This document shows positions 30,109-59,685 of a DNA stretch of 64,000 nucleotides, one piece after another. The stretch is from NCBI RefSeq assembly GCF_024509055.1, contig NZ_JANINM010000538.1, positions 1 through 64,000 on the forward strand, written 5' to 3'. The stretch's first letter is position 1. Each line of letters opens with the position of its first letter. Source of the stretch: Mesorhizobium sp. GTDB taxonomy: Bacteria > Pseudomonadota > Alphaproteobacteria > Rhizobiales > Rhizobiaceae. The translations under genes and the position numbers were made by a program. The notes beneath the pieces were generated by a model. It had not been told where the DNA came from. It did no database searches and worked only from the letters and a program-made list of their open reading frames with translations.

Positions 30109-30130
30109 GCCTCGGGCTCTTTTCCGAAAG

Positions 30131-31049: not shown

Positions 31050-31928
31050 ATGCGAAAGCCCGTCGACGCAGCCAGGCTGTCCTTCATCAGGCCCATGGAG
31101 CCGGAGCTCGTCGAGCAGCCGCCCAACGGCGCCGAATGGAGCCACGAGGCCAAGTTCGACGGCTATCGAACCCAGATGATCAAGGATGCCGAGGGCATAC
31201 GTCTCTTCACCAAAAATGGCTTCGACTGGACCTCGAAATATCGGCTGCTTGCCGAAGAAGCCAAGTCGATCGCGGCGGGAAGCTTCATCATCGACGGGGA
31301 GGTGATCGTCACCAACGAAGCTGGCCTATCGGACTTCCATGCTCTCAGGTCGGCCATCTCAAAACGCCCGCGCGGTCTCTATTTTGTCGCGTTCGACCTG
31401 CTGCATCTCAACGGCCATGACCTGCGCGACATGGCCCTCTTAGACCGCCGCGAGATCCTTCAGGCCGCCTTCGCTCCTGGCGGCCATATCCAGTTCAGCG
31501 AGGCCTTTCCGGGGACTGGTGACGTTGTCTACCAACTAGCGTGCGAGGCGGGACTGGAAGGCATTGTCTCGAAGCGGCTGGACAGCGTCTACCGCAGCGG
31601 CCCGACAATGGCTTGGCGCAAGATCAAGTGCTACGTCGAGAAGGAGATGGATATCATCGGCGTGAAGCGCGATAGCGGCAAGCCGGCGATGGTCCTTATG
31701 GCCGACGACGGCCGGTAAATGGGGGGCGCCTTCGTCACCTTTAGAGCCGACCGACGGAAGCAGCTATGGGATCTCGCGCAAGGGAAGGCGGGAGCACCTC
31801 CGCCGAAGGGCCTGGCGAAGGAGAAGGCCGAATGGCTCAAGCCCGGGCTGCGCGGCCGCGTGAAGTTCCTGAAGGGGGAGGGCAGGCTTCGCCACGCCTC
31901 GCTCAAGGACTTCTGGGAACAAGATTAG
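31050..31928 (+). pseudogene. ATP-dependent DNA ligase (LigD/LigC-type ligase module) interrupted by an in-frame TAA at 31716-31718
   Basis: Adenylation motif 'EAKFDGYRTQM', 'DGEVIV', 'EGIVSKRLDSVYRSGPTMAWRKIKC'. After TAA the same frame continues 'MGGAFVTFRADRRKQLWDLAQGKAGAPPPKGL...WLKPGLRGRVKFLKGEGRLRHASLKDF' (OB-fold C-terminus). Confidence 0.82.
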
Positions 31929-32604: not shown

Positions 32605-34245
32605 TCAAGCCGCGACGCTTTTGCGCATGCGTAAGTCCGTAACCCTAACGTTTATCCTTCCATCTCCCCCGAGTATGTCCGCGATCTCGTTGGCAAAAAT
32701 TTGGGAATGGCCATCTATGAGACCCTCTCGCTCATTCCGCCAGCCGCCGTCGCGGCGCTTCTCCTCGATATCGCGATCAATCACGACGTACTCAACTTCC
32801 ATGTCAGTAGGAACGAGATCGACTACCTGTAGGCGGTTGCGGCGCTGGATGTTAGTCGCGTCGAGAACTGCCGTGTCTCCGCGCGCAAGGCGCGTGGTCA
32901 GACGCTTCATCGCAACCTCAAACACATGCGCCTGGGAGCCGGGCGTTGCTTGCGACCCGAATAGCTCGATCCGAATGTCGTCGGACGATACGATTTCGTC
33001 GGCAGCGAAGTTTGCTCTAGCGTAAGTACTCTTGCCTGCGCCGCTGGGGCCGATCATCAACACCAGCCGCTGTCCACAGCGCGGCCAGTTCCAACCGGCC
33101 ACTTCCTTGCGGCCGGTTACAGCGTACGTGCTCCACGAAGACGCCAGGAGACTAAGCAGGGACGGATCCGGCACCTCATTGTGAGCAATATTATTCCTGG
33201 CCTTGTTGGTGGCCCGCAAGAAATTGACATCCTGTCGTTCGAGCATTCCTTCGAGGCAGTCGCGTAGATGCTTGTTCTCCATGTCGTACCTGTGCGTGAC
33301 AAGCTGCTCGCCCCTCGCAGTCTCGATCCTATAGGGGAGCCGCGCCTCAATAGCTTGTGCGTAGACGTCTGCGAAATGTCTGCAGACCGTTGCGTTAAAA
33401 TCGAGCACGGGACCACTGACTGCCCGCCACCGCCTAACATCGAACGCCTTGCGGTTTCCGGAGGCGAGCAGGCAAGCGGTGTGAAGGAACACCTCCCCAT
33501 CGACTGTATCCACAAGGCCATTGCCCCAGCGAGGATGCACATCGGCGCTTCGCCCGTATGCTCGCTGAAGAAGTTCCCAAGGGTCGATCGCCGTTAGCGG
33601 CTCCTGTCTGCACAGCATCTCAGCCAGATATGGGTCGTAGCCGGCCAGCCCGATCGCCACTTCGATGGCGGACCGGTCCAGCAGGTCCTCGCCCAGGGTC
33701 CGGCCGGTTCGCCGCGCAACGTAGGTGCGCATATCGAACGACGATACCCGACCACGCCATCGGACCACGGCGCCGGGAAACAGGCGATCAACGTCATCCT
33801 GGGGGGTGTCGGGCGGGATGAACGCGACGAGGACGGGTAGCAGGACAGCACTGCGCCTGCGTCGGCGTTCGACTGTGAATGACCGGAGGAATGAAGACCA
33901 TGCTGACCACTCTTCAAGGTCGATGCCGTCCGCGACGAATGCAGTGCCGCGGAGCGTCGGCGAGTCGAGCATCGAGCCGACGGATCGCAGCGATTGCCGG
34001 ATCTCCCCCGCGGCAAACGCCATCCTATGCACAATGGATGCGCGGGAGCGGTCAGAAACCCTGTGAACGGGGGCCATGCCGTCTGCTTCGAGCCCGCGGG
34101 TTAAGGCATCGACGAGGCCGGGTGGGCGGTATGTCGGCACCTGCACGGCGACGAAGCCATCGCGCTGCGCCGCATCCACGACCGCCCGTACGAAGCCGGC
34201 TGGTCCGCCGAGCGACCAAAAAAGGTTCTCGTCGATGTCTATCAT
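32605..34245 (-). CDS. Fourth gene of the pPIWI_RE-like operon: unknown ~390-aa N-terminal domain plus C-terminal P-loop (AAA_33/polynucleotide-kinase-like) domain
   Basis: C-terminal 'RLVLMIGPSGAGKSTYARANFAADEIVSSDDIRIELFG', 'DTAVLDATNIQRRNRLQVVDL', as in T4 Pnkp/zeta-like P-loop kinases. ATGA overlap with the upstream giant gene. Confidence 0.85.
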   Translation of the reverse strand: MIDIDENLFWSLGGPAGFVRAVVDAAQRDGFVAVQVPTYRPPGLVDALTRGLEADGMAPVHRVSDRSRASIVHRMAFAAGEIRQSLRSVGSMLDSPTLRGTAFVADGIDLEEWSAWSSFLRSFTVERRRRRSAVLLPVLVAFIPPDTPQDDVDRLFPGAVVRWRGRVSSFDMRTYVARRTGRTLGEDLLDRSAIEVAIGLAGYDPYLAEMLCRQEPLTAIDPWELLQRAYGRSADVHPRWGNGLVDTVDGEVFLHTACLLASGNRKAFDVRRWRAVSGPVLDFNATVCRHFADVYAQAIEARLPYRIETARGEQLVTHRYDMENKHLRDCLEGMLERQDVNFLRATNKARNNIAHNEVPDPSLLSLLASSWSTYAVTGRKEVAGWNWPRCGQRLVLMIGPSGAGKSTYARANFAADEIVSSDDIRIELFGSQATPGSQAHVFEVAMKRLTTRLARGDTAVLDATNIQRRNRLQVVDLVPTDMEVEYVVIDRDIEEKRRDGGWRNEREGLIDGHSQIFANEIADILGGDGRINVRVTDLRMRKSVAA

Positions 34246-37200
34246 TTGGACGCAGCTGCTGGCGCGAGGCCCAGCACCTGGGCTACCAACGGGGATGGCA
34301 TATATCGACCCCGCGCTCGCTCACCAGCCGGCTTTCCCGGGGCGGCGACGAGAAGGCCCATCGTTACACCGTAATCTACGACCGCTTGCGCCGAAACTCC
34401 GAGCGAGGAAAGTTCCTCATCAAGCCCGATGTACTCCTCGATGTCTGCGAGCGACAGGGACGACGGGCCATGGAGGCGAGCCAGCATTGCCAGCGCCTTG
34501 CCGTAGCGGCCTGTCAGGCCGATCGCTTCAGCGTCTATCGGATCAGGCTGCACCCTCGCACTTCCCTTTTGTCCGCCAGCAAAAAGCTGCGACATGGGTT
34601 GGTTCCAGCCACCGTTCGAGGTTGCAGCAGCCTCGAAATGTGTCGAAAGCGAGACTACGTTGTCCTTGTTCACCATGTCAGTGAAGAACGCGGTCGACCA
34701 TGGCTCTAAAGGCACGACGTCGACATGCGATGTGAGAGCGGCCAACTGCCCGTCTCCGATCACTGAGGATGCGTGCTCGGGGCCGCCCACGAAAACGACA
34801 CGCACGTCGCCGCGCGCAACAGTCTTCACGTTGATTGCCGAGCGCACCCATTCGGCGGTCCAAGGTGCTGATGCCTGTACGATCGCAATCAGCTTGCGCC
34901 CCTGGGCGACCTTCTGGTCCCTCAGCGTCGCATCCAGTTCAGCCAACGATGAAACCGACAGCAGACGCACATCGTAGGATTCGCCGTCGGAGAAAGAGTC
35001 TGGCACGCTCTTTAGGGCCCAGGCCACCAATGGATAGTCGGCTAGTTTATTGCCGACAATAACGGTCGCGCGGGCCTTCGATAAAAGAACGTCACGCTCC
35101 TGCCCAAGCGTGAGGGGAGACGGGCGGCGCTCTGACAGCACGTTCTTCGCAGGCGCCAGGATGCGCCGGTGCGATTTCGGATCGAACCCGACCGGGGCGT
35201 CCCGGTGGGCAAATTCAAGGAGGGCAGTGTCGATCTCGTCGCGATTTCCCAGCAGCCGCACGACGGCCGTAGAGCGCAGAGTCCACCTATCGCCGCCGAC
35301 GCGGCGCACGATTCCCAAGCCTTCCATCTCATCCAGAAGGTCATCGAAAAGGGAGAACCTGTTTCGGTCATGGAAACCAGCCTCCCAGAAATAGATCGCC
35401 TGATCGCGGATCTCGTGAGTTGGGAAGCCCTCCTCGAGTCGTCCCTCTGCTTCGGCCTGAAACACCAGATTCGCAACGACATAGGCAATGAGGCGGTAGC
35501 GAAGGTCGATGCCGAGGGTGAACTCGAAAATCTTCTTGATCTCCGAGCGGGTGGCGAGGTCCTCCATGACCTCTGAGACGAGACCCGTGGGAACCTTGCG
35601 CATCGGCTTTTGGCTGGACTTCACGTGATCCATCACGGCTTGGAGCAACCGCTGGGCGTAAGTTTGAATGAGGACAGGGTAGTAGTTGGCATGGGACAGA
35701 ATGCGCCAGACGTCGGTCCGCTCCAATTCCAGTCCCAGCGCAGCGAAGGGCCGCAGAACAAGGTCCTCTGCGTCCTTCCGCTCTTCTCCGGTCAGAGACC
35801 CGATGCGCCGTGGGTTGGCGGAAATCTGCTTGAGCGGGGGGTTGCCCGTCTGGACGAGCCGCGTCACATCCGAAAGGCCCGCCAGCACGAACTTGAAGCG
35901 GCGGCGGGTGTCGGTCATTAACTGTTGGAGATCGCGAAATTCCCGGTAGCCTTGGGCGGCGTCGCTGACGACGAAGTGGTCGCATTCGTCAAGCAGCAGA
36001 AGGACTCGACGACGGTCGTCCTCATCGAGCCAATTGCGAATTGCCTCTCTGACACGCTTCGGCTCAGGCGTGGGTGAGGCCCCGAAGATGTCCGGAAGGG
36101 CCGTCGCTATTTCGGACCAGACGACTTTAGTAGCAGTATTGCCGCGTCCGATGTCCTGCGCGTCGACAAAGGCGACAAGCGTCCCCTTTTCGGGGGCGTT
36201 TCTGATCGTGACCAAATGCCTGAGAATGGCGGTCTTGCCCATGCGGCGGCCGCCATACACGATGTTGGAACCCTCGCTATCGAAAATCTGGGCGATGTCA
36301 TCTTCACGGCCAACGAACATCTCAGGCGGAACCGCGTCGCGGCCCCAGTCCTTGTAGGGTGCAACGTAGCTGTAAGGCTGGGCCAGTTCGATCAAGGTCA
36401 GCGCGCGTATAGACGGCTCGGCGAGGGCGTAGAACAAGGTCGCAGAGTCGACGAGTAGGACGCGCCGATGGGCCGCGATGTTGCGCAGGAGGAAATTCCT
36501 GCGCTGGTCCGGAGAAACCACGTCGTTCACGAAAAGGATCACGCCAAGCTTGCCCTGAGAGCAATGTTCGGAGATCACAGAATCCGGCGGCATGGTCTGG
36601 ACCACGACTAGCCGATACGTCCCCTCGGTACGGGAACCGAAATCCGGTAGAAGCAAGCTTTCTTGGTCAGTCGGAATCTTTACGCGGAAGTCTCCGACGA
36701 ATGTCCTGCGCTGGCCGCCAGCCGGGCCGGATAGATGCTTGATCTCGGCCGAGATGCCCAGCTTGTCGAGGAAAGAAGACAGGTGAGCGGAAAACGAAGT
36801 GTCGTGGAAGCGGCGGAAGAGATCGCGCCAGATGTCGGCGATATCTGCCGACTCCTCCCGACGGGCGTCTGTGAGCTGGCTGAACCGCATTCCGGCGAAA
36901 TCGGTGCCTCCTCGCAGGGCGCTAGCGACCTGCTGCGGAAGGTCGCGCCGGTGGTCGACAAGAGCGTGCAAGACCTCCGAGAACGCATCGAAACGCCAGT
37001 TTCGGCGGCGAGATTCAGAGAGACGGCCCGTCTTCTCCACCTCGTCGATGTGCTCCTCCGCAGTCAGAAGGTCGTCGGACTGGCATAGCTGGCGCAGGCG
37101 GTCGCGCAGCTGACGGTCTGCAGTGGCGGGGAGCCGGTCGATGCGCCCTTCAAGGCGGATGCGCGGCTCGTCAAGGAGAGCTTGGGCCTCAGCCTTAATG

Positions 37201-40200
37201 GCCTCGGTCTCGTCGATTGCGACACTGACGTCGTAGATGCCATCCGCCTCCTGTTCGGTACGGTCACCAGGGCCGACGATCGCTGGAACCTGCATGGCTT
37301 CGAGCTTGTCGATGCGGTCGAGCAGGGCGGTGGCCTCCTCGGCGTCGCTGCCTTGCCGCAGCGAACCGAAACGAATGACTCTTTCGACTATCCGCCTGAC
37401 CCGGTCGAAGTCGTCTTTCAGAGCCTCTTTCGCGTCCGCGACGCTGGTCTCGAACTCGCCGGCAAGGGCGGCGGTGAGTTCCTCGTCGATTCCGAAGAAA
37501 GAGGCTGCGTCCAGAAGCATCCTCGCGCCTACGTAGGAGTTGCGCTCCATGCGGGCACGAACGGCATCCTCGAAGGTCTCGTCGCGAGTCGCCGTATCGG
37601 TGGACAGGAGAGGCGGTTCAATCTCACACAGGATGTCGACGATGCGGCTAGGTTCGTATGGCGTGGGCAACCACGAGCGCCCGAATTCCAGCTCGGTTAT
37701 CAACGCCAACTCGGCATGACAGGACTGGTAGATGTCAGTGCCTGGCGCCACGGACATTCCAAGTTCGCCCGAAAGGATGGCTGCGAGTTTTCGCAAACGA
37801 GGACCGACATGACTAGCTGCTATGCTGACCCTGCCTAGATCGGAAGCTGCGGCATCAACCGCTGCGATCATGCCCTCGAGCGAACGAGCAATTTGCATAG
37901 CGAACTCGCGTCCCTTGGGCCGCTCTGCGTTTTTCGCCTGCTCGACCTCAGACGTGAGTTCAATGTAGTTGCTGGCGATATCGCGGAAGCTCTCGAAGAA
38001 GGCTACCAGACGATTTCGAGCGACTCCATCGAGACCCTGAATCCTGTTGTTTACGGCGCTCTCGATTTCTTCGAACAGCTGAAGGATGCGGCTGCGGTCT
38101 TTCACGCGATCGACGAAATTCCTCACCATCTCCGCGGTGCGCGTGTCGTCGAGGCCTTTCTGCAACTGGAGGCGCAGGCTCCCGACCAGGCTATCTCCCC
38201 GGTTCAGTTCATTGCGAATCTTGTTTCCGAGTTGAAAGTCGAACTTGATGGACTGAAAAGCCGCTGCTTTCTTGAGTAGCGCTGCGCGCGTGTCCGCGAG
38301 AGCCTTCGAGCAGTCAAGCTCGTTCTGCACATTCGCCAGCATCGCGCGCGAGAATGTCAGATTGGTATGCTGAATACGCTCGATGCTCTCGAACACTTCC
38401 TGCGCGTGCGTCCCCAGGTCGCCGGGCAGTGAGCCGAACGAACGAAGGAGTTCTGCTGCGCCAAGTGAGGGGAAAAAGATTCCGAGTTCCAATAGAAGCG
38501 GCATCAAGGTTATCAACCTAGCGGCGGCGCGCTCCGTGTGGGGATCGGAAGCGATTGTGTCGATCGAACGGAAACCCGCCTGGATCCAATCGTTCACAAG
38601 TTCGATATTGCTTTGAAGCGCCGTATGGTTGAGATGCCCAGAGAGCGCCGCGAGCTTCGCCTCATCCGAAGTTACACAAAAGCGGCGAGGAGAATTTCCT
38701 TCGTTTGAAGCCAGGGCCTTCTCGGAAGCCAAAGCCAGATTGTAGGCGAGGGAATAGCTGCCGGCCGTCATCAGCCGCTCCAGCGCCTCATCGATCCGAG
38801 TAGCCTCGAGATCTTCGAAATCGCCCGCGACGGACCCAAGACCGGACCCCATCCTGGCTAACGGCGCAGGGACTTGCTGTGGAGCCTTCTCCTCAATTGC
38901 TGCGACGGCGGACGCGAGTTCACTCAAGCTCAGTTGGTCGGATTCGTCGTCCTCGTCGAGTGTATCTTCGGCATCGCTGTCATCGGCTGCAGCGGCAAGT
39001 TCGTCATAGACCAGTGGTTCGGCATCGGCCGCAAGGGAAGTTTCCGGCTCCTCTGATGATGAAACGGAATCAACCGTGCCCAAACCTTTCGCCAGTGCTG
39101 TCAAGTCCACACCGGTTTCCGACAGGGGTGATTCTACGGCAACGCCTGAAACCATTGCTGTCTTTTCCGGCAATGGCGCTGCTTCCCGAGGGCTTGAGAC
39201 GCCGTCGTTCGGCCCCTCTGCTGCTGGGACAACCGAGCGAAGGGCTGCGGGGGGCGCGCCGGGATTCAACAGCGAGATAGCTTCGGAGAACGACCTTACC
39301 ACGGTTTCAAGGCTGAACTGGACATCTTGGATGCGCTGCTGCGCTGCCTCGTAGATGGACGCGCGTTCCAGAAGCTTCGCGGTCATTGCTTCGGCTTGCA
39401 GCTGGCCTGCTTCGCGCAGGGCGTCGTGGGCGGCCTCCGCGGCGGCCTCGCCGGCCCGCAAGTGCCCCTCGGCGACTCCCGCGTCTCGTGTGCGGATCCT
39501 TCCTTGAGGAGGGAGCGCCGGCATAGAAATCGACTCGCCAAGGTGTTCTGAGATGAGTGTGGCCTCGCGGCCAAGGGTTGCGGCTCGTTGGAGAAGGACA
39601 CTGTTCTCCACAAGCCGGGGAGTCCTTGCGGCAGCCTTAAGTGCTTGCGCTAGGAGCTCCCCTATGCGTTCTAAAGCGCCGTCAAGTTCCAGAAATGTAT
39701 TATCGTTCAAGGCGTTTCTGGTTTGGCGGGCTTCGTCTTCGATTCCTTTAAGAACTTCAGACAGCTGCAGCGGCGTAATATCCGTTTCAGGTTGAATTTT
39801 CCTCGGCGAAGAATCGAACCTGCCGTGATGTGTCATGGCTTCGATGACGACGCCTTCATTTTCCTCTCCGTCATTCCGTTCGTCCATGTCCCCCTCCAAA
39901 GTTTGCTCTGCGGGAAGGCTCGCCTCGCCTTCGTCGAAAGCGGCGAGGTATCCCGCAAATAGTTCGTCCTCCGCACGCTCGTCATTCGCAGCGAACCACA
40001 ACGTCGCCTTTCGCCGCGCGGAGACATACTTGGCTACCTCGTCAAACTCCTCGCCCGCCTGCGTCACTGCCTGCTCTAGGCCAAGGCTCGGATTGTCCAC
40101 CGCCCGGACTAGCGCGAATTCCGCGGCGTAGTTCCGGTATCCGCCGCGCGACAGAAAGGCGAAAACGGATGGCGCCTCGCTCGACAAGACCCAGTTCGCT

Positions 40201-43200
40201 GATAGCGAAGGAAGTGCGCCAGCGGGCCGGCTTTCCTCGATGGCCCGAAGAGTGCTTTCGATCTTTCGATAGAAGGGCCGGAAGAGACTCTCTTTGTCCT
40301 TCAGGTCAATCGCCGCAAGCACCGGCTCAGGTACCGAGAAAAGCCGTGCGACGCACGCGGTGATTGCTTCCGTCGATGGCTTGTCATCAGGCCATGCTCC
40401 GGGGTCAGAAAGTGCCTGGCGAATCAAGGAGCGATGGGCGTGAAGGTGGCTGCGAAACGCGCCGCTTAAAGAGATCTTGTCCCGGAGCCAACCAGCGTCC
40501 ACGCCAGGCGCGGGCGCTTTCGGGATGTGCGGTAGGTCGATTACCTCCTCGACGTCAGTCATATCGGCTCGACCGAGCTTTCTCAGGTCCTTCTTCGAGC
40601 CTTCGCGCTTCGCATAGTCGTCAATCCGGGCTCGGACCTCTTCGGCGCGGGCCTGACAGGCTGCGGCACGCGCGCAGAACGCCGCGACGTCTGCGTACTC
40701 GCTGCCGAATTCGTCGAGCAGCTTTGCCGCGGTTTCGGCAAAGGTTGAGGAATGCTTCGGCATGAAAAGTGACTCAAGCGCCAGGTAATGACGCATTGAA
40801 TTTCCATGCCCCGCTAGGTGCAGAGACCGTCCGATCTGGAGCGGGGAATGGGCTAGGGTGTAGGGAAGACTCTCCGCCGCGTCGAACTTCCTGACCGATC
40901 GAACATCCCTGAAAAGCTGATCGTAGACCGGGTTAAAGATCCAGCGCTTCGAGTTGCGGCCCATCGTGCGCGGGATGAACTTCCAGAGGAACCCGATCCC
41001 GTCAGCCAAGTGCATCAATCCGAGCATGAAGTGCGCGAAGGACGTTTCGGATTTGGGATCGAACTCCGGCAGGAAGCGACACAGCGGCAAATGGCTTTTG
41101 CCCACTGCGTCCTTCACCTGCTGCCGAGTCCTTGGCGCGGCGTGCGCTGATACCAGGGGTAGGAGCCATGCCTCGCTCATGAACGAAGGCAGCGGGCCAA
41201 CCCAACACATCTCAAGCAATTCCTCGAGGAGAGTGTCCCCGGCGGCCAAATTCCGTATTTCCGCTGGGATTGCGAGCGAAGGTGCGAGCGCGATGCCCTT
41301 CCTGGCGATTGTGGGCAGGGCGGTTCCGCTAGCTGGGACTGGCCTCGAAGAGATGTCTGCCGCTCTGTCCAACGACAACGGTGCGACTGCTTTGGAAAGG
41401 ATGAACAGGGGATTGGAGGCGCGGATAGCCTCCGATTCAAGCGCGTGAACAGCACTTCGCACTGGCGAGGCTATTTCGTCTGCATCAAGGGTAGACGGTT
41501 TGCTTCTGTTAGTTGACGGTGACGACGACGCGTCATGGTTGGCTGGCTTAGCCGATTCCTCATCGTCTTCTTCCGATGGTTGCGAGACGGGCGTCGGTTC
41601 GTCGGATGAATCCTCTTCGACGGGCTCGGCCGCATCCACGGCTTCGTCCTCGTCCTCCTGCTCGTCGAGGATATAGGCTGGGATGTACTCTGCTACCTTG
41701 CGCGTCTGGAATAGCGGTGCGGGCATCTTCACCGGCGAGCGCGTGTGGCCGAAACCCGTCCGCAGGCCGTGGCAGAGCGCAGCGATCCTGTCAGGGTCGT
41801 CGCTAGGCAGGCAATGCGCGACAAGGATGCCGATGGTACCCGGAAGCTTGTACGGTTCTTCGGTCAGGTCGCGGACTGCTGGCGAGTAGAGTTTCTCATC
41901 TGATAGGGAAGTGGGAAGGTCGTCTGCAGCCACTAGCTTGAACTGCGGTGGGGTGCGGTACACCGATAGCCCCTTGGCAATCTTTTGCTGCCCGTCATGG
42001 TCGCCTGATGAGACATAGTTTGGCGCCGTTCCAGGAAGACGAACCAACCGGCCAGCCTCTGTCAAAGTCGGCGTAGACTGCACGACGCTTTCGATCTCAC
42101 TCCCTGTCGTTTGGTCAATCTGGACGAATGTTCGGGATTTCCGCGTAACCACATTCGGCTCGATCATGTCCTGGACCCGTACGATTCGGGCGCCAGGCCA
42201 GTCGACTGCTGGGTCGAGGGGGCGCCCCCGAAGCGTGTAGGGTCCTCCCCATCCCTTGTTTGAAATCAAGCGCCACAGGTTTCGAGCGTGCGTCCCATCG
42301 AACAGGACGAGGGGGTTCTCTCCCCGCTCGCAGGCATTGCCGACGACTTCTTCGACGAACTCCTGAAAGTCTTGCATGGCAGTCTCGCCGCTGCCGACGC
42401 TTGCTCCGTCCCAGGCGGCGACGGCCTTGAGGAGGTCATAGAATGGGAGAGGACCAGCGAAATCGAGCGTTCCATCTTTCGGGCGCGCCGCGGTGGCGGA
42501 TGTTCGCCCGCTCGCGACATCGATGCTGACGGACAGGAAGAAGGAGGCTGCCGAGCGGCTGAACGTTCGATTCTGCGAGACCACAGAGATGCCGATGATT
42601 GAGCGAGGCCGCGCCGCCGCTTCAGGAAAAGCCTCGGAAACGTTCCGTGCGACTGGGGAGACGAGACCGGAATGGCCGAACATCAGATCGAGGACCGCAG
42701 CTTGAATCCGGAAGAACCACTCGTCAGCTTTCGCTCCGCGCGCGTCGAGGTATTGGACGTTGCTGTCGCCGTAGCGCGCGAGAGCGATGCGCCCGGCTAT
42801 CTTGTTCACCGGGTCGTCTCGAAAGCGGGACGCGTGGACCAGGATGCGACAGGGACCGTGCTCCTTAAGAAGATGCTCAGCAAAAGGCCTCCAGATGCTC
42901 ACGCGGTTCTCGTAGCGTTCTCTGGCCGGACGACCCGCGGCGGCCAGGGAGTTCCTCGAGCCATGCACGCCTTGGGGGAGCAGCCGATGTTCAATGTGCA
43001 TGCGCCCGTCGAAAAGCGTTCCGATAACATCCGCGATCGCCGCTCCCTCTCTCGCGTCCGCGGAAAGCACGACGATCGTTGGCACCTCCGTGCCGAATGT
43101 CTGGCGAAGGCGTTCCGTGTTGGAAGCCCGGAGTTCGTCGAAGCGACGCGCTTCATCGTCCGCCTTGGGCGATATGCTCACGCCTCGCGGCAACGCCCCG

Positions 43201-44468
43201 CCGTGGAGCATCTCCCAGGCATCCGCGATGGCTTCGTCGTCGATCTCGTTATGGCCCAGAGCTCGGGCGACATCGCTAAGGATGTTGGCGGCCTTGAGGG
43301 CCGGAATATCCTCGCTCGTACGCGCCACGCGTTTGGCCGCCGGAACCGAAATTCCCGTAAGCGGCTCAAGGATACCGGACATCGCTCTAGCGACCGCGTC
43401 ATGGCAATCTAGCCAGTCAAGCTCGGTGGCGCCAGTTGCTACTGATGGAGCGGGTTTGTAGGCCGGGGCATATGGTATGCCGACGAATGCGCCGTCTCGC
43501 GGCCCTATAGACACCAGCGAGGCGAACCCCTCGCCTGGGTCGATCCCCGCCCTCAGCGCGGAGAGCGCATATGCCGGATCCTCAGGGTTTTGCACGGTAC
43601 CGCGGTGGACGGGAACGTCAAAGGAGATTGCCCTGCGTTCGTCGATCCCGAATACTGCAGCGGAGATTCTCCGCTGACGGGGCATGAGGTTGGTCGGAAT
43701 TTCTGGGCACCAGCGCATCCGCGAGACCTCGATGCGGACGAATGGTTGCGGGAGCCCTGGCGAAGTCTCGACCGCGAGACGGGCGCGCATCGACCACGAA
43801 CCGCTAGGGACACGGCGTGGGAAGGTGATGAACGATATCGCGTTGTCACGGGCGTGGGAGCGCACCAGAGCGCGGACCGGCCCCATGCCAGCAAAGAGCT
43901 CCGTCCCGGCAATCCGGCGGAATGCAGCTGCGTGGATGGCATCACGAATGTCAGGGAACCCATTTGCAAGCGGATCGGGAGCGATGAGGTCAACTATTTT
44001 CCGTTCAGCGCGCGCGATGCTGCCGCCGAGTGCAAGGCTTGTTACCTCGGACACAAGCCCCGACTGAATCCCACGCGCCTGAGCCCAAGGCCCGAGCACG
44101 TTCGTCGCCCAGCTGCGTACCGCGAGGTTTGCGGCGCGGACGCATGCCTCTTCCCCTCCAGCGCATTCCGCGAACGGCGGCCTTCCGGTCTCGCGCTCAG
44201 CCTGACCGATGAGGGCGAGGTCGGAGGCGACGTACAGGGGGTCGGGCAGCCCAGCCGAAAGAAGCGCCCGCAAGGTTGAATAGGGCAGGCGATTGCCGGG
44301 GTCGGTCGCCCTGGCAGCAGCCGAGATCGCCAGGAAAGCGTCGGCGGCTTGGGGCGTCCAACTGACGCGAACGCATTCAATAGGCTCGGTCGCGCCAGGG
44401 ACTACTGAAAGGCCCAGCACCTGGATGCTTTCGCTCTCTGAACCGGGCTTCCTCCTGAAGAACATCAC
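34242..44468 (-). CDS. Giant 3408-aa protein: N-terminal pPIWI_RE (PIWI/Argonaute-like) module, acidic linkers and helical region, C-terminal STAND/AAA NTPase with wHTH-like tail
   Basis: aa ~1-925: 'FPRRVPSGSWSMRARLAVETSPGLPQPFVRIEVSRMRW', MID-like 'VPTIVVLSADAREGAAIADVIGTLF', RNase H-like 'IGISVVSQNRTFSRSAASFFLSVSIDV...PLVLFDGTHARNLWRLISNKGW', ending 'PDRIAALCHGLRTGFGHTRSPVKMPAPLF'. aa ~2716-3000: 'FVGREDDIAQIF...VYGGRRMGKTAILRHL...RRVLLLLDECDHF'. Confidence 0.8.
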   Translation of the reverse strand: MMFFRRKPGSESESIQVLGLSVVPGATEPIECVRVSWTPQAADAFLAISAAARATDPGNRLPYSTLRALLSAGLPDPLYVASDLALIGQAERETGRPPFAECAGGEEACVRAANLAVRSWATNVLGPWAQARGIQSGLVSEVTSLALGGSIARAERKIVDLIAPDPLANGFPDIRDAIHAAAFRRIAGTELFAGMGPVRALVRSHARDNAISFITFPRRVPSGSWSMRARLAVETSPGLPQPFVRIEVSRMRWCPEIPTNLMPRQRRISAAVFGIDERRAISFDVPVHRGTVQNPEDPAYALSALRAGIDPGEGFASLVSIGPRDGAFVGIPYAPAYKPAPSVATGATELDWLDCHDAVARAMSGILEPLTGISVPAAKRVARTSEDIPALKAANILSDVARALGHNEIDDEAIADAWEMLHGGALPRGVSISPKADDEARRFDELRASNTERLRQTFGTEVPTIVVLSADAREGAAIADVIGTLFDGRMHIEHRLLPQGVHGSRNSLAAAGRPARERYENRVSIWRPFAEHLLKEHGPCRILVHASRFRDDPVNKIAGRIALARYGDSNVQYLDARGAKADEWFFRIQAAVLDLMFGHSGLVSPVARNVSEAFPEAAARPRSIIGISVVSQNRTFSRSAASFFLSVSIDVASGRTSATAARPKDGTLDFAGPLPFYDLLKAVAAWDGASVGSGETAMQDFQEFVEEVVGNACERGENPLVLFDGTHARNLWRLISNKGWGGPYTLRGRPLDPAVDWPGARIVRVQDMIEPNVVTRKSRTFVQIDQTTGSEIESVVQSTPTLTEAGRLVRLPGTAPNYVSSGDHDGQQKIAKGLSVYRTPPQFKLVAADDLPTSLSDEKLYSPAVRDLTEEPYKLPGTIGILVAHCLPSDDPDRIAALCHGLRTGFGHTRSPVKMPAPLFQTRKVAEYIPAYILDEQEDEDEAVDAAEPVEEDSSDEPTPVSQPSEEDDEESAKPANHDASSSPSTNRSKPSTLDADEIASPVRSAVHALESEAIRASNPLFILSKAVAPLSLDRAADISSRPVPASGTALPTIARKGIALAPSLAIPAEIRNLAAGDTLLEELLEMCWVGPLPSFMSEAWLLPLVSAHAAPRTRQQVKDAVGKSHLPLCRFLPEFDPKSETSFAHFMLGLMHLADGIGFLWKFIPRTMGRNSKRWIFNPVYDQLFRDVRSVRKFDAAESLPYTLAHSPLQIGRSLHLAGHGNSMRHYLALESLFMPKHSSTFAETAAKLLDEFGSEYADVAAFCARAAACQARAEEVRARIDDYAKREGSKKDLRKLGRADMTDVEEVIDLPHIPKAPAPGVDAGWLRDKISLSGAFRSHLHAHRSLIRQALSDPGAWPDDKPSTEAITACVARLFSVPEPVLAAIDLKDKESLFRPFYRKIESTLRAIEESRPAGALPSLSANWVLSSEAPSVFAFLSRGGYRNYAAEFALVRAVDNPSLGLEQAVTQAGEEFDEVAKYVSARRKATLWFAANDERAEDELFAGYLAAFDEGEASLPAEQTLEGDMDERNDGEENEGVVIEAMTHHGRFDSSPRKIQPETDITPLQLSEVLKGIEDEARQTRNALNDNTFLELDGALERIGELLAQALKAAARTPRLVENSVLLQRAATLGREATLISEHLGESISMPALPPQGRIRTRDAGVAEGHLRAGEAAAEAAHDALREAGQLQAEAMTAKLLERASIYEAAQQRIQDVQFSLETVVRSFSEAISLLNPGAPPAALRSVVPAAEGPNDGVSSPREAAPLPEKTAMVSGVAVESPLSETGVDLTALAKGLGTVDSVSSSEEPETSLAADAEPLVYDELAAAADDSDAEDTLDEDDESDQLSLSELASAVAAIEEKAPQQVPAPLARMGSGLGSVAGDFEDLEATRIDEALERLMTAGSYSLAYNLALASEKALASNEGNSPRRFCVTSDEAKLAALSGHLNHTALQSNIELVNDWIQAGFRSIDTIASDPHTERAAARLITLMPLLLELGIFFPSLGAAELLRSFGSLPGDLGTHAQEVFESIERIQHTNLTFSRAMLANVQNELDCSKALADTRAALLKKAAAFQSIKFDFQLGNKIRNELNRGDSLVGSLRLQLQKGLDDTRTAEMVRNFVDRVKDRSRILQLFEEIESAVNNRIQGLDGVARNRLVAFFESFRDIASNYIELTSEVEQAKNAERPKGREFAMQIARSLEGMIAAVDAAASDLGRVSIAASHVGPRLRKLAAILSGELGMSVAPGTDIYQSCHAELALITELEFGRSWLPTPYEPSRIVDILCEIEPPLLSTDTATRDETFEDAVRARMERNSYVGARMLLDAASFFGIDEELTAALAGEFETSVADAKEALKDDFDRVRRIVERVIRFGSLRQGSDAEEATALLDRIDKLEAMQVPAIVGPGDRTEQEADGIYDVSVAIDETEAIKAEAQALLDEPRIRLEGRIDRLPATADRQLRDRLRQLCQSDDLLTAEEHIDEVEKTGRLSESRRRNWRFDAFSEVLHALVDHRRDLPQQVASALRGGTDFAGMRFSQLTDARREESADIADIWRDLFRRFHDTSFSAHLSSFLDKLGISAEIKHLSGPAGGQRRTFVGDFRVKIPTDQESLLLPDFGSRTEGTYRLVVVQTMPPDSVISEHCSQGKLGVILFVNDVVSPDQRRNFLLRNIAAHRRVLLVDSATLFYALAEPSIRALTLIELAQPYSYVAPYKDWGRDAVPPEMFVGREDDIAQIFDSEGSNIVYGGRRMGKTAILRHLVTIRNAPEKGTLVAFVDAQDIGRGNTATKVVWSEIATALPDIFGASPTPEPKRVREAIRNWLDEDDRRRVLLLLDECDHFVVSDAAQGYREFRDLQQLMTDTRRRFKFVLAGLSDVTRLVQTGNPPLKQISANPRRIGSLTGEERKDAEDLVLRPFAALGLELERTDVWRILSHANYYPVLIQTYAQRLLQAVMDHVKSSQKPMRKVPTGLVSEVMEDLATRSEIKKIFEFTLGIDLRYRLIAYVVANLVFQAEAEGRLEEGFPTHEIRDQAIYFWEAGFHDRNRFSLFDDLLDEMEGLGIVRRVGGDRWTLRSTAVVRLLGNRDEIDTALLEFAHRDAPVGFDPKSHRRILAPAKNVLSERRPSPLTLGQERDVLLSKARATVIVGNKLADYPLVAWALKSVPDSFSDGESYDVRLLSVSSLAELDATLRDQKVAQGRKLIAIVQASAPWTAEWVRSAINVKTVARGDVRVVFVGGPEHASSVIGDGQLAALTSHVDVVPLEPWSTAFFTDMVNKDNVVSLSTHFEAAATSNGGWNQPMSQLFAGGQKGSARVQPDPIDAEAIGLTGRYGKALAMLARLHGPSSLSLADIEEYIGLDEELSSLGVSAQAVVDYGVTMGLLVAAPGKPAGERARGRYMPSPLVAQVLGLAPAAASK

Positions 44469-47400
44469 GCGTCCTCTGCCGCTTTTGCTGTCCGCTGAAT
44501 AAGTCCCGCGCAGCGCGAGAGAGGTTCTAAGTAAGGGCGGTAGAGCGCGTCGTAAACTTCGCGGTGGATGGCATCCCCGGAATTCACGAGTCGCTCAAGA
44601 ATCGATTGCATCGCCACGAGATAGCTCGTGCGCGTGCCGTCCGGCCGCGGGTCCCGCAGGTGCATGGAATTCGGCGCCCAGGCCGCATCGACGAACAAGA
44701 CGCGGGTCTTGCACCCATTGCGCATCGAGCGCCCGATGGTCTGGATCACATCTATCATCACATCGGCGACAAACGCGTCGGTGAGGTTTCCGAGTGTGCC
44801 TACGCGGATGGAATGGCGCAGGAGCCGTCTCACGTCAGCAAGCGCGGCGCGGCGCGCAGCGCGCAGCGCGTTTGCCAAATCTGTCACACTATCGTGCGCC
44901 GGGAAACGCAGCGCATCGAAGTTCATGGAGTCTCGGCCGACCATCCCGGCTACGAAGTCGAAGCTCTCCTGCGCTGGGTGTGGACGGGTGAGAAAGGCAA
45001 CTGTGCCAATGGCCGCCTTATCGAACAAATCTGAATTCCGAAACAATGGGCCGCCAAACACGATGTTAACGCCCCGGGACAATGCCTTCATTGGAAATAC
45101 GACTGCGTCCCAGTCATCGCGCTGCCCGAGCCTCTCGACTTGGGCTGCTGTGATATAATCGCCTTGGTTCTTTTCCGGCACGCTATCGACCACAGCGACT
45201 ATCCGGCGTCCGACGCGTTCGGCGACGGCCATAGCATGGTCTTTGACCAAGCGGACCTGTTCGTAACCGTTCACGACAAACGCAACCCTTCGGCCGCCAG
45301 AAAACCTGTCCGCGACCAAGGCTGGCAGCGCAGCGTTGTCACCTCGCACGAAATGGTCGACCATTGCCCGCAGGATTCGCTCTCGGTCGTCATAGGGCGC
45401 TCCGGAGAAACGGAGCGCTCGCGATGGATCCTGAGGGTCCGATATTGGCCGGAGCAGGTAGCGTGAATCCCGCCAAGCCTCGTCCGATTGGACCCGGCGC
45501 AGCACGTAGTCCGGACCGACTGGGACGTGGAACGACGGACTGTCGAGCAGGAAGGATGTCGCGCTCGTCAAGAGAACGTTAGGTCCGCGACTGACGCCGT
45601 CGTGGCGCAGAAGCTCGTGCAGGCGATAGAGGAAGAGGCGGGGAGCCCCCTCGAAGGTGACGTAGTGCAGCGACAGGCTTGTTCTGCGGCCCCGCTGCTG
45701 GAACAGAAATCGCACGCCAGCAAGGCGGCCTGTAACCGCGTCTGGCACGAGCCGGGCAGAATCCGCGCTGATGCCGTCCCGGAAGATCGGCGCCTTGTGC
45801 ACACCTTCCGCCATCATAGCATGCTGGGCCGGGACCAAAGACAAGAACTGCATGACGACGCTTGAGACGTTCACCAGGAACGAGAATAGCGCCACGGCGC
45901 GCGGCTTGGCATGCTCGGGGTTCGGCGGAACGAACCCGAACATGGCTTCGCGTGCCAATTCCACCGCCTCAGCCTTCTGGACGTGCGATGGATAGGAAAT
46001 CCAGTCGAGCAGCGCGTCTACGCACGCGCGGAACGCGCCTTGTACCTCGTCTTCGCTTTTTCCTAGCGCGACCGCGGTCCGCACGAGGTCGAAGTCGCGC
46101 TCGCCGAGCCCCGCCGCATCCTGCGACCGGAATAGGGCCTGGCGGACGCAACCGTCCCAGAAGGCCATGATCGCGCCGATCCGCTCGTCCTCGGCCGCGC
46201 GCTCGGCGTCGGTCATTGTCTGGCGGTCGCCACGTCGAAAGAGGTCTGCAGCCACGCGGTTCCCCGTGACAAACGCGTCGTCATACTCAGCAAGGAAGCG
46301 AGATCCGCTCGGCGCACGGTCGTCTTGAAGCTGCCGGATAAGCGCCCGGTTGAGGTCCATGAACCGCGTCGCCTTGCTCGCGTAGTCGGCAACGTTGCTC
46401 CCGGTTCGGTCGTTCTCGCCGAGGGCTAGAGGCTTCAGAAGATCGTCAAGCAGCCGGTTTTCATAGGAGGACTTCGCGCCGGAAATGCTGATTTCCGAAA
46501 CAGCCTGCCGGTCAAGTGCTGACTGGATTCCGTCGGCCTCGTCCGCGATAACGACGTCCGCAGTCCGGGCGACCATCTCTAGATGGCGGAGATGCTCCTC
46601 TGCAAAATGCGGCGGCAAGCGCGTGTCAAGCGACATCACGTGGCCCAGCCAGACATGGCGCTCGGCGAGTTGGCGGGAAGCCTTCATGCGTCCGCACCAG
46701 GATGCTGCCGGGCAAAGCGAAACGCTTTCGGTAGGACGCAATTCGCCGTTCGCCTTCAGTCGCGCCTGGACGACGTTCGCGCAGGGCGGGTCGAGGTGAG
46801 GAAAGGGTTGTTCGGGACGGTAGTCGTCGTCGAAACCGGCGAGTGCGCAATTGACGGACATGAGGTCTGCGAACGGCACCGTCCGGCCAAAGCCCCGCGC
46901 CTCGTCCAGGGACCCGATGCGCTCCGCGAGTTTGCGCGCGTGGCGTAGACGTGTCTCGGCCGACTGCCCCATGAGCAGGCCGACCTCGATGCCGTAACTA
47001 TATAGCTCCGACATAAGGTTGAAGGAGACTTCGATAGATGGAAGAAGCACGACCGTTCGTAGCGATCGTTCGTAAAACCAGGCCACCAGGAGAGTCACAA
47101 GCGTGGTCTTGCCCGTGCCCGGCAATCCGATCATGTGTTTGAGCCCATCAAGCTGGATATATTCGACAGGTTCGAGCTGGGAACGGTCGGCGGCGGGCTG
47201 AAGAACCTCCACCTTGACAGTGCCGGCGGCATCCCAGAGGCGGCGGGACCAGCCCTTCGATGCTCGGTTGGCGTCCGCAGCATCGATGGAGTCGAAGCGC
47301 TCAGCGATGGCCTGAAGGTCAGCGAGAGGAATCGTCACAGGCGCCCGGGGCCGCAGCGCGCTGTCGTGGCGGGGGGCGACTCCGAGGTTCTGGGCAACGT

Positions 47401-47890
47401 CCGAGAGATCGAGAGTAATCCGGCGTCCGCCGACCTGCCTCGGCTCGACCGCAAACGACCTCCTCGCGTCCGCAGCGGCAAGTCCATGCTCACGAAGCGG
47501 CAGCCCCGCCGCCAGTGCGTCAGACCACTGGACGATCCTGGGGTCGTTGCCTGCCGTCCGCCGGAAGCTGATATTCCGAGACTTGGGATTAATCTGAAAC
47601 GGTTGGTCGACGTAGCTATCGTCTTCCTGCCGGCGGCTCTCCTCCCAGGTGAGGAACTCATAAACTGCTTGGCGCAGATCACTCTCGGAGGTATAGCTCA
47701 CGCCTAACTGACGAAGAGAGAAGGCGGCGCGCGCGAAGGGTGCCCCGGCCGCATGGTCGGACACGGAGCCGAAGCCGGTCAAAAGAGGCGGGATGTCGGC
47801 AAGAGCCGAGAGACCGAGGAATTGATCCACTGCCGCGCAAAGCCACTGCACGGCAACGATGCGTGTGAAACCCTCCGGCTTTGCCCTCAA
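44465..47890 (-). CDS. DinG/XPD-like superfamily 2 helicase of the pPIWI_RE-like operon
   Basis: Walker A 'MIGLPGTGKTTLVTLLVAWFYERS' (47103-47132), DEAD box 'VVIADEADGIQSALD' (~46521-46560), four Cys between them (NCALAGF, DPPCANVV, LCPAASWC) as in Fe-S helicases, C-terminal 'IDVIQTIGRSMRNGCKTRVLFVDAAW'. TTG at 47890 overlaps the upstream stop (TTGA). The ORF track start 47947 is longer. Confidence 0.82.
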   Translation of the reverse strand: MRAKPEGFTRIVAVQWLCAAVDQFLGLSALADIPPLLTGFGSVSDHAAGAPFARAAFSLRQLGVSYTSESDLRQAVYEFLTWEESRRQEDDSYVDQPFQINPKSRNISFRRTAGNDPRIVQWSDALAAGLPLREHGLAAADARRSFAVEPRQVGGRRITLDLSDVAQNLGVAPRHDSALRPRAPVTIPLADLQAIAERFDSIDAADANRASKGWSRRLWDAAGTVKVEVLQPAADRSQLEPVEYIQLDGLKHMIGLPGTGKTTLVTLLVAWFYERSLRTVVLLPSIEVSFNLMSELYSYGIEVGLLMGQSAETRLRHARKLAERIGSLDEARGFGRTVPFADLMSVNCALAGFDDDYRPEQPFPHLDPPCANVVQARLKANGELRPTESVSLCPAASWCGRMKASRQLAERHVWLGHVMSLDTRLPPHFAEEHLRHLEMVARTADVVIADEADGIQSALDRQAVSEISISGAKSSYENRLLDDLLKPLALGENDRTGSNVADYASKATRFMDLNRALIRQLQDDRAPSGSRFLAEYDDAFVTGNRVAADLFRRGDRQTMTDAERAAEDERIGAIMAFWDGCVRQALFRSQDAAGLGERDFDLVRTAVALGKSEDEVQGAFRACVDALLDWISYPSHVQKAEAVELAREAMFGFVPPNPEHAKPRAVALFSFLVNVSSVVMQFLSLVPAQHAMMAEGVHKAPIFRDGISADSARLVPDAVTGRLAGVRFLFQQRGRRTSLSLHYVTFEGAPRLFLYRLHELLRHDGVSRGPNVLLTSATSFLLDSPSFHVPVGPDYVLRRVQSDEAWRDSRYLLRPISDPQDPSRALRFSGAPYDDRERILRAMVDHFVRGDNAALPALVADRFSGGRRVAFVVNGYEQVRLVKDHAMAVAERVGRRIVAVVDSVPEKNQGDYITAAQVERLGQRDDWDAVVFPMKALSRGVNIVFGGPLFRNSDLFDKAAIGTVAFLTRPHPAQESFDFVAGMVGRDSMNFDALRFPAHDSVTDLANALRAARRAALADVRRLLRHSIRVGTLGNLTDAFVADVMIDVIQTIGRSMRNGCKTRVLFVDAAWAPNSMHLRDPRPDGTRTSYLVAMQSILERLVNSGDAIHREVYDALYRPYLEPLSRCAGLIQRTAKAAEDA

Positions 47891-48975
47891 ACACCAAACT
47901 CCGTCATCACATCGCCGACCGACATGAACTCGATGCCCTCCGGGCAACCGGACACCAGAGAAGCGGTGCGAACGTAATCGCGGTCGATCCGGATCAAGAA
48001 GTCCGGTATCGCCACGATCCTGCGACGAAACGCAGCCAAGCCGCCTATACCGCGAGCGAAGCGCTCCCCGATCACGGCCGCGCTCGAATAGGACTTCACG
48101 TCGATACCCACCTCGATTCCGCCGATGCTGATGTCGGCGGCGTCACACATAGGGTACAGCTCGACGTCGGGCCTGCGAGGCCGCAGGAAGTCATAGAGAC
48201 TAATCTCCGGGAGTCCGGGACCGACCCAATAAGTCATGATTGCGGGATCTGCGACTCTCCACTCGTTCGGTGCCGCAACTTCATGTTGGTCTCCGACGAT
48301 GGCTTCTGGCCACGACATCCGGCACTCCCGGACTGCACAGCGCCCAAGCGGATACGAGACCCGGTCGGAAACCGGAATAAGTGGCGACGAGCAGTGGCCG
48401 CAGATACGAAGTGTTCGTCCGTGAAGTGCTGAGGCCGGCAACGGCCGGAAAAAGCTGGGAAGGTCTCCTGCGAGCTCTGGCACCTCCTGTGCAAATGCAA
48501 GCACCTCCGAACGGCGCCGACAGGGTTGGCGGACAATGTTCTCGCGAACGAGTCGGTAAAGCTGGGGCGCTGCGGCACCGACAGCCGACAACGCGGTTCG
48601 AAGGCGCTCGTGAAATATATCTTCGGCAATTCCTGACTCGTCACCGATATTGGCCAGTTGGAGGCAGTCCTCCGTCGGGGTGCCATAGCCTGGGTCGACG
48701 AGTATAGCAGCCCGCTCATCGCAACGGGCAAAGGCAATAGGACCCCACTCTCCAACTGGCAGACAGGCCATCGCCGTGAAGGAATTCACTTGGGCGCCGA
48801 TATCTTGCTCGTAACCGTCGCGGAGGGCAATTGCAGAGACCAACGCCATCCCTCGGCGGAGGGTCTCGGGCATCGACGGTCCTTGGCACAGCACATCGCC
48901 GGAGGTGACAGAGGCCCGGTGAGCTTCCACTAATCCCCGCGCGGCCATTCGAACGGCAATGCTCGCCCGGTCCAT
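47887..48975 (-). CDS. REase-fold protein of the pPIWI_RE-like operon, with a zinc ribbon
   Basis: 'CGHCSSPLIP...GRCAVRECRM' (4-Cys) followed by 'ELYPMCDAADISIGGIEVGIDVKSYSSAAVIGERFARGIGGL' (D...D-x-K nuclease motif). Confidence 0.78.
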   Translation of the reverse strand: MDRASIAVRMAARGLVEAHRASVTSGDVLCQGPSMPETLRRGMALVSAIALRDGYEQDIGAQVNSFTAMACLPVGEWGPIAFARCDERAAILVDPGYGTPTEDCLQLANIGDESGIAEDIFHERLRTALSAVGAAAPQLYRLVRENIVRQPCRRRSEVLAFAQEVPELAGDLPSFFRPLPASALHGRTLRICGHCSSPLIPVSDRVSYPLGRCAVRECRMSWPEAIVGDQHEVAAPNEWRVADPAIMTYWVGPGLPEISLYDFLRPRRPDVELYPMCDAADISIGGIEVGIDVKSYSSAAVIGERFARGIGGLAAFRRRIVAIPDFLIRIDRDYVRTASLVSGCPEGIEFMSVGDVMTEFGV

Positions 48976-50277: not shown

Positions 50278-51393
50278 ATGAAGGGGAAACTCGCGTCCGT
50301 TGTCACCGTGTCGCTGGCGTTGCTCGTTCCAGGCGGAATGGCGCGTGCGCTGGAATACCAGCTTCCGTCTGACCCGATTTCTCCTACTTCGGCCAGCGAA
50401 TGCGACGAGGTCTATGACCAGTATTCCGCGATCGCCGATCAAGTTGGCACCCGCGCCAAGGCGGCGGGAGACCAGGCATGGGCGATCGTCCTGCAGTCGG
50501 GACCTGGCGATCCGGAAGCCAAATCCCTTTACGCGCAGTCTGGCCAGCTGTTCGACGAGGCTTCCCAAATCCGCTCCGAAGGCTCTGCCGCCCGTCTTCG
50601 CTGCATGAAGCAGGTGTATGCATATCAGGCGTCCCATCAGGACGAACAGCGGCTTGGCTCTTACGGTTCGCCCGGGAAGTATGCCGCGGACCTGAGCGGC
50701 CCGGTGGCGAAGGCAGCGGCGCTGAACGGCATCAAGACCTTGGATGAACTGGGGAAAATCCCTCCAGACCTGGCGATCTTTGAAAAGGTGAACAAGATCG
50801 GCGAGACGGTGAGCGACCTCTCTGGACGTGGAGGGGCCGGAGGCTACCTAAGCCAGTTGGTCGGTGGTGTCTCAGACCTACAGCAGTGGGGGCCGCTGCG
50901 GACCTTCATGGTCAAGAACTCGCTTAGAGAGCTCCTTGCGATCAACAGCGCGGCGACGTCGGCCCTGCAGTCCGAACTGTCGTCGTTCGACAGTTCGGAG
51001 ATTGACCGCATGGTTTCAGACGCACGCCGGGCCGACAGCACGCTTCTCTCGGGGAACGTGCCAGCGTCGGGCTCGTCAGGAGCGGACACGTTGTCGGACG
51101 AGGAACTGGAGGCGTATCGCGAGCACCAAGGCATGTATGCCGGAAGGGGAGAGGCATACGAAGAAGCCGTCGCGAGCATGCAGCGTGAGTACAGGAAAGT
51201 TGTCGGTCGCCCTGCTTCGAACGGCGGCGGGCGAAGTGGCACCCGGTATTCAGCCACACAGTGTCAGCAGCTGCTGGAGCAAATCCAGGAATACAATCAG
51301 CTACTTCCTCAATATTCGGCAGCAGGGCAGGGCGCCATGATCCAGATGGGCATAAACGCCAACCAAAGCGCCTGCAACAGGGGGTGTCGATGA
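50278..51393 (+). CDS. Secreted hypothetical protein
   Basis: Signal peptide MKGKLASVVTVSLALLVPGGMARA. ATGA overlap with the ankyrin gene downstream. Confidence 0.75.
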   Translation: MKGKLASVVTVSLALLVPGGMARALEYQLPSDPISPTSASECDEVYDQYSAIADQVGTRAKAAGDQAWAIVLQSGPGDPEAKSLYAQSGQLFDEASQIRSEGSAARLRCMKQVYAYQASHQDEQRLGSYGSPGKYAADLSGPVAKAAALNGIKTLDELGKIPPDLAIFEKVNKIGETVSDLSGRGGAGGYLSQLVGGVSDLQQWGPLRTFMVKNSLRELLAINSAATSALQSELSSFDSSEIDRMVSDARRADSTLLSGNVPASGSSGADTLSDEELEAYREHQGMYAGRGEAYEEAVASMQREYRKVVGRPASNGGGRSGTRYSATQCQQLLEQIQEYNQLLPQYSAAGQGAMIQMGINANQSACNRGCR

Positions 51394-59633: not shown

Positions 59634-59685
59634 GACTACCTCCGACCGCTATCCTCTACGATCTTCCTCCGACGGTCTGAGCCGC

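Follow-up and report, generated by a model that had tools for sequence, protein, structure and literature searches.

pPIWI-RE proteins were described by Burroughs, Iyer and Aravind (2013, PMC3702460) in standalone or triad contexts, with a rare N-terminal zincin fusion as the only fusion. In the triads the PIWI gene follows genes for a restriction endonuclease (REase)-fold protein and a DinG-type helicase. Here we analyzed a window of 64,000 nucleotides from Mesorhizobium sp. (assembly GCF_024509055.1, contig NZ_JANINM010000538.1, positions 1 to 64,000) and found an operon that shares with these triads the REase-DinG-PIWI order, the Y/REase and Z/DinG domain pairs, the X-MID-RNase H domains of the PIWI protein and the overlapping genes. 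In contrast to the triads, its PIWI protein continues for ~2480 extra residues containing a STAND nucleoside triphosphatase (NTPase), and a fourth gene encodes a HEPN-polynucleotide kinase (PNK) protein. The operon is probably a defense system and we infer a role against mobile elements. We see about an even chance that it represents a derived four-gene lineage of the triads, in which the PIWI module is the sensor of a STAND NTPase switch and HEPN the output.

All four genes lie on the minus strand with uninterrupted reading frames, in the order REase, helicase, 3408-aa giant and 546-aa protein that an earlier note had read from the letters of this stretch, and the junctions are overlaps of ~4 bases (Table 1). 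The same note gave ~1140 aa for the helicase, which agrees with a start at the TTG at 47890, which overlaps the stop codon of the REase gene; this is the likelier start, ahead of the listed TTG at 47947 (1160 aa), which lies inside the REase gene. Gene 1 matches pPIWI_RE_REase in Pfam (44.8 bits, cut-off 26.1) and PprRE in PADLOC (E=5.4e-40). Its Y domain scores 22.4 bits, under the cut-off of 26.7 that homologs pass at 56 and 30.9, and its catalytic D...D-x-K motif is intact, as it is in 13 of 13 aligned homologs. The helicase matches pPIWI_RE_Z (29.6 bits, cut-off 25) and PprDinG (E=8.6e-159) and retains Walker A (GLPGTGKT), a Cys-rich region of the iron-sulfur type and the DEAD box. The locus has the strict pPIWI-RE order, namely REase (Y, zinc ribbon and REase), DinG helicase (Z) and PIWI with overlapping or close ends.

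The giant protein is not confined to this contig. We found 15 fused giants (2865-3411 aa) in Alphaproteobacteria, Betaproteobacteria and one planctomycete, on chromosomes as well as on closed plasmids. Eight loci contain all four genes in order, and seven more show helicase, giant and fourth gene where the fetched flank ends before the REase. Mesorhizobium waimense has the same operon with a giant of 3316 aa, and a Rhodobacterales genome from another family encodes a REase of 377 aa, a helicase of 1132 aa, a giant of 2865 aa and a fourth protein of 566 aa. A genome scan with the single giant sequence gave no match, while an alignment of the C-terminal part retrieved ten loci: Aureimonas, four Bradyrhizobium, Cupriavidus, a Gemmataceae metagenome-assembled genome, Thermoflexus, M. 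waimense and the Rhodobacterales genome. With the exception of Thermoflexus, every one of these ten with sufficient sequence has a giant of 2865-3411 aa between helicase and fourth gene. Further copies come from plasmid records of Microvirga, two Azospirillum and four B. elkanii; in the closed plasmid sequences inspected (Microvirga, A. oryzae and one B. elkanii) the giant is one coding sequence of 9.3-10.2 kb. The homologs keep both helicase and REase, whose absence from the neighborhoods would, by the earlier note, have refuted its reading.

Misassembly or frameshift as the origin of the giant was rejected, since it forms a single frame in each of 15 independent loci, among them closed plasmids where it is annotated as one coding sequence. 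Chance is excluded along with both, as 14 loci besides the window share this frame at ~30-70% protein identity.

The first ~925 residues of the giant show the pPIWI_RE layout that had been proposed for them, with Pfam matches to the RNase H and MID families and a PADLOC match to PprPIWI (E=2.5e-33) spanning aa 13-942. X, MID and RNase H domains thus occur together in one protein, X being under its cut-off in the window giant and above it in two homologs (46.1 and 37.2 bits). For the active site we used D525 and D610 as reference residues, on which PsPIWI-RE depends (PMC10991935). The β1 position lacks Asp in 13 of 13 aligned giants, reading IIGIS in the window, while the second catalytic Asp (D724 in the window) is retained in most of them. 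Of the two residues that name the family, the Arg is present and conserved among the aligned proteins (ARIVR/FVRVR). The Glu is replaced by Gly in the window (G880), Aureimonas and M. waimense, by Asp in Microvirga and Azospirillum and by Asn in B. diazoefficiens; giants of Rhodobacterales, other Bradyrhizobium, Gemmataceae and Cupriavidus retain it. Because of this replacement we file the window giant as a derived sister lineage of pPIWI-RE and not as a strict member. Judged from the aligned residues, the PIWI module looks like a nuclease-dead, guide-binding sensor.

The C-terminal half carries the NTPase with FVGRE, GGRRMGKT and LLLLDECD that had been noticed before. It matches AAA_22 (31.7 bits, cut-off 27, aa 2732-2870), and an alignment of 11 homologs shows no or almost no variation in FVGR, GGRR.GK and LL.DE. 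An AlphaFold model of aa 2481-3408, built from an 11-sequence alignment (mean predicted local distance difference test score, pLDDT, 78.6), places a winged helix behind the NTPase, in agreement with the wHTH-like tail read from the letters. A fold search with this model returned the Walker-type ATPase PABY2304, archaeal Cdc6/ORC, CED-4 and Avs3. The giant therefore has the STAND sequence of elements, hhGR, Walker A, Walker B and then a winged helix, and shares FVGR and the rest of this series with defense STAND NTPases such as Avs and archaeal Walker-type ATPases (e.g. PABY2304). Unlike these it has a PIWI input, no C-terminal repeat sensor was seen, and no Avs model of PADLOC matched at E<=1; the likeness to Avs3 is at the fold level only. 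The long helical region of the giant is N-terminal to the NTPase, and the stretch between PIWI part and portable module (aa 931-1885) is much shorter in the Rhodobacterales homolog. Ahead of the NTPase (aa ~2560-2700), the order of elements in the model might, as a guess, be that of a REase-like (α-β3-α-β) fold, in which active-site residues are missing.

The fourth gene had been described as a 546-aa P-loop kinase. This holds for its C-terminal part, which has a PNK fold, and not for the whole protein, in which a HEPN domain is the most conserved part. In the structure model (mean pLDDT 83.2) the N-terminus is an AAA+-like fold without P-loop that matches clamp loaders in the fold search. An R-x3-A-H motif within a helical domain is present in 18 of 18 homologs, together with an invariant Trp and Glu, and in the model helix 337-354 terminates at this motif, which is the R-x4-6-H arrangement at a helix end that characterizes HEPN domains. 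Single-sequence Pfam scans found HEPN_Swt1 in 8 of 18 members (best E 0.0017), followed in the homologs by DUF4145, pEK499_p136 and Apea HEPN. A PDB sequence search with the gene 4 profile was topped by CRISPR-associated proteins aligned at 'RNSVAH' and by Csm6', all with weak scores and all of one fold and motif. The kinase domain is a P-loop kinase with a conserved D..R acceptor motif and the fold of the Clostridium thermocellum PNK (template modeling score 0.70-0.74), a polynucleotide 5'-kinase by these features; the Pnkp1/Rnl/Hen1 RNA-repair complex was also matched. The gene 4 product is predicted from these similarities to be an RNA-cutting and RNA-phosphorylating enzyme. It shares the R-x4-H motif with HEPN RNases (Swt1/Abi2, Csm6) and the combination of HEPN and PNK with the Las1-Grc3 nuclease-kinase machine, but differs from both in that a single bacterial polypeptide holds the two together with an inactive AAA+ domain and is tied to a STAND protein. 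Gene 4 as a mere kinase was rejected, HEPN being universal and the kinase optional.

Table 1 Genes and domains of the four-gene operon in the Mesorhizobium sp. window
Feature	Position in window	Strand	Basis
Gene 1: Y + zinc ribbon + restriction-endonuclease-fold protein, 362 aa	47887..48975	(-)	Pfam/PADLOC, motif alignment
Gene 2: Z domain + DinG-type SF2 helicase, ~1141 aa	44465..47890 (open reading frame open to 47947)	(-)	Pfam, PADLOC, motifs
Gene 3: pPIWI-RE core + STAND/AAA+ NTPase fusion, 3408 aa, GTG start	34242..44468	(-)	Pfam, PADLOC, homologs
pPIWI_RE_X domain, aa 31-266	43671..44378	(-)	Pfam 24.9 bits, below cut-off 30.5; PADLOC PprPIWI span
MID domain, aa 498-605, VNK..R...NVQYL motifs retained	42654..42977	(-)	MID_pPIWI_RE 31.1 bits (cut-off 26.6), alignment
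RNase H-fold PIWI domain, aa 624-930	41679..42599	(-)	RNaseH_pPIWI_RE 70.9 bits (cut-off 25), alignment
Acidic linkers + variable, mostly helical region, aa 931-1885	38814..41678	(-)	Poorly conserved
Conserved region, start of portable STAND module, aa 1886-2560	36789..38813	(-)	Local matches from aa ~1860-1900 to PIWI-free STAND proteins
STAND/AAA+ NTPase, aa 2718-2960; FVGRE, Walker A GGRRMGKT, Walker B LLLLDECD	35589..36317	(-)	Pfam, alignment, model
Helical/winged-helix region behind NTPase, aa 2961-3064	35277..35588	(-)	AlphaFold model
Putative second α/β domain without Walker motifs, helical lid, terminal winged helix, aa 3121-3391	34296..35108	(-)	AlphaFold model, secondary-structure order
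Gene 4: Walker-less AAA+-like + HEPN + PNK protein, 546 aa	32605..34245	(-)	Pfam, model, fold search
HEPN domain, aa 256-380; motif R350-N-N-I-A-H355 at 33181-33198	33106..33480	(-)	Motif alignment, Pfam HEPN families, Csm6 in PDB sequence search
PNK domain, aa 390-540; GPSGAGKS, SSDDIR	32626..33078	(-)	AAA_33 65.2 bits; fold search

From aa ~1890 onwards the giant aligns to PIWI-free proteins of 1927-2289 aa from Agrobacterium (Ti plasmid), Bosea, Thiodictyon, Methylocystis and Brasilonema. Over ~1500 residues the Agrobacterium protein and the B. diazoefficiens giant share 50% identity, and the N-terminus of the former aligns directly after the PIWI portion of other giants; its best reading is thus a fused system whose PIWI end may have been lost. 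A STAND-HEPN pair without PIWI occurs in Agrobacterium, Thiodictyon and Thermoflexus, the last having STAND module and fourth gene while no PF13032 match was found anywhere in its genome. STAND and HEPN are a separable module. On the Ti plasmid pTiCFBP4996 of Agrobacterium leguminum (L026:9812-18265) a WYL regulator, the PIWI-free STAND protein and a HEPN protein with a degenerate kinase motif stand together, and this locus looks like a fused system after loss of PIWI, helicase and REase. On the Brasilonema plasmid pBOCT2 (L031:7879-14748) the STAND module is fused N-terminally to a complete sigma-70 factor (regions 1.2, 2, 3 and 4), and a helicase gene follows it. The STAND-HEPN output module thus swaps its input heads, among them PIWI, a sigma-70 factor and unknown domains.

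The lineage is widespread, and its presence is sporadic. A PF13032 survey was positive in 2 of 397 genomes of the order, both with giants; in another family of the phylum 7 of 246 genomes were positive, with two giants (frames of 3227 and 3090 aa), three ordinary proteins (1071, 1011 and 911 aa) and two fragments. Four of these seven loci were inspected and comprise two four-gene and two three-gene operons. Among relatives the operon is present in 2 of 101, and no split version of the fusion was seen across the sampled clade. In trees of the PIWI and the helicase proteins, built without the PIWI protein of genome G707 (a reference with a far too long branch), the 15 fused systems are separated from five classical proteins by one branch each (100/99 and 99/99; 99% of bootstrap trees). 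As the root of the trees is unknown, a single gain and a single loss of the fusion fit equally well. The position of the planctomycete copy among those of Bradyrhizobium implies horizontal transfer. The earlier note knew no description of such a configuration, and we likewise found none published; it is no one-off, however, the lineage being conserved across at least two phyla.

Several genes recur around these operons. In seven loci (L003, L017, L026, L029, L036, L037 and L057) a WYL-domain regulator adjoins the operon or lies close to it, which is not so in the window. Genes for a PD-(D/E)XK nuclease and a UvrD-type helicase-nuclease (AddAB-like, 40-78% identity) adjoin the operon at L003:3458-9504, L017:16308-22360 and L021:14723-20661; a similar pair adjoins the PIWI-free STAND gene of Methylocystis (L030:2554-8321). 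The window yielded no such pair. A putative viral contig (classed as such; IMGVR_UViG_3300025116_000059, L039:3314-14043) carries a fused giant with an open stretch of 3181 aa and a HEPN protein.

The boldest reading, put at somewhat less than even, is a guide-programmed immune receptor, in which a nuclease-dead PIWI module would base-pair with foreign nucleic acid and switch on the STAND NTPase in the same polypeptide, which would activate a HEPN RNase whose cut ends are 5'-phosphorylated. In the working that we favor, with the even chance given above, the X-MID-PIWI part would hold a small guide, probably RNA, and find matching plasmid or phage nucleic acid, with DinG helping at R-loops. Target binding would then free the C-terminal STAND/AAA+ NTPase to oligomerize with ATP, as is typical of the family. 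The NTPase may activate the gene 4 protein, whose inactive AAA+ domain would dock on it while HEPN cuts RNA. HEPN cutting leaves 5'-OH ends, which PNK converts to 5'-phosphate; here the kinase would phosphorylate the cut ends, so that they are not simply resealed or are passed to decay. In parallel, REase and helicase could cut the DNA of the target, which is also what has been proposed for classical triads. We count the patchy, plasmid-borne distribution with WYL regulators in favor.

Several observations weigh against this working. STAND receptors usually have a C-terminal repeat sensor, and no superstructure-forming repeats were seen there in the AlphaFold model, which has a second α/β domain and a winged helix instead; because these repeats are absent we file the giant as a STAND-type NTPase domain and not as a typical STAND receptor. 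The HEPN assignment combines the motif with weak profile scores, and no single profile match exceeds a curated cut-off. Cupriavidus, G1005, G987, Thermoflexus and Thiodictyon lack the kinase domain, which therefore is not essential; HEPN is the constant part of gene 4. The β1 Asp is also absent from the classical triads compared, and its loss is therefore not specific to the fusion; this agrees with the retention of catalytic residues in only a subset of the pPIWI-RE family (PMC3702460).

Alternatively, instead of killing or stalling the cell, gene 4 could make the guides, with HEPN cutting transcripts, PNK adding the 5' phosphate that MID anchors and STAND loading the product while REase and helicase defend on DNA. 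The 5'-OH/5'-P chemistry fits, the MID residues are conserved, the REase motif is intact and the HEPN-PNK pairing resembles the Las1-Grc3 RNA-processing machine (PMC10942766). We nevertheless hold this to be unlikely, at perhaps one chance in four: STAND-HEPN exists without PIWI, several fused systems whose genes are otherwise intact lack PNK, and PsPIWI-RE uses 5'-OH RNA guides (PMC10991935). That HEPN accompanies the STAND module where PIWI is absent is why we prefer it as STAND output over a guide maker. The same portability, and the long, acidic, poorly conserved linkers between the halves, would suit a fusion that serves the co-inheritance of two systems or the guarding of one, in which the triad restricts DNA alone and STAND-HEPN fires as a back-up on triad inhibition or a separate phage signal. 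Against this, the two halves form one polypeptide throughout the sampled clade with no split version, and we regard it as improbable. Least credible is that the operon serves the cell in replicating or segregating its chromosome, a role claimed for the PIWI-RE of Pseudomonas stutzeri, where knock-out of PsPIWI-RE affects cell division and ciprofloxacin sensitivity (PMC10991935); sporadic presence in the order and among relatives, plasmid carriage and the planctomycete copy nested among Bradyrhizobium speak against it.

Short prokaryotic Argonautes (pAgo) offer a likeness in working. SPARTA, for example (PMC11156904), couples a guide-binding PIWI module to a toxic effector, as is proposed here, whereas the operon has a different PIWI family, an NTPase switch and HEPN instead of an NADase output. 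Their hallmarks APAZ, TIR and Sir2 had no match in the operon proteins in Pfam or PADLOC.

Positions 29392-30108 hold a periplasmic-binding-protein gene without its first part, and DNA similarity and left-flank synteny with the sugar ABC operon of relatives stop near 30114, which is likely the edge of an accessory region. A 222-aa open reading frame at 31050-31718 facing the operon encodes the catalytic domain only of an ATP-dependent DNA ligase, and related DNA occurs in many relatives; we do not count it as part of the operon. On the other side lie a 722-aa ankyrin-repeat protein with a weak peptidoglycan-binding match (51261-53429) and, at 56074-63969, a HlyD/C39-ABC export pair adjoining a 1427-aa protein of bacterial Ig-like and FG-GAP repeats, which is probably secreted and adhesin-like.

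A full-text literature search for PIWI-RE names, with preprints and subscription journals outside its scope, turned up neither a STAND fusion nor a HEPN partner of pPIWI-RE, and to our knowledge there is no earlier example of a PIWI-STAND receptor. The function of pPIWI-RE has been open since 2013, and most members seem to be without nuclease activity. If the guide-programmed receptor holds, recognition, signal switch and RNA-level shut-down would be joined in one giant and its partner. A conserved PIWI-NTPase lineage with an RNase partner makes a signaling role directly testable, with one operon, five mutable active sites and closed plasmid examples, and suggests how poorly understood PIWI-RE systems might raise alarm inside the cell.

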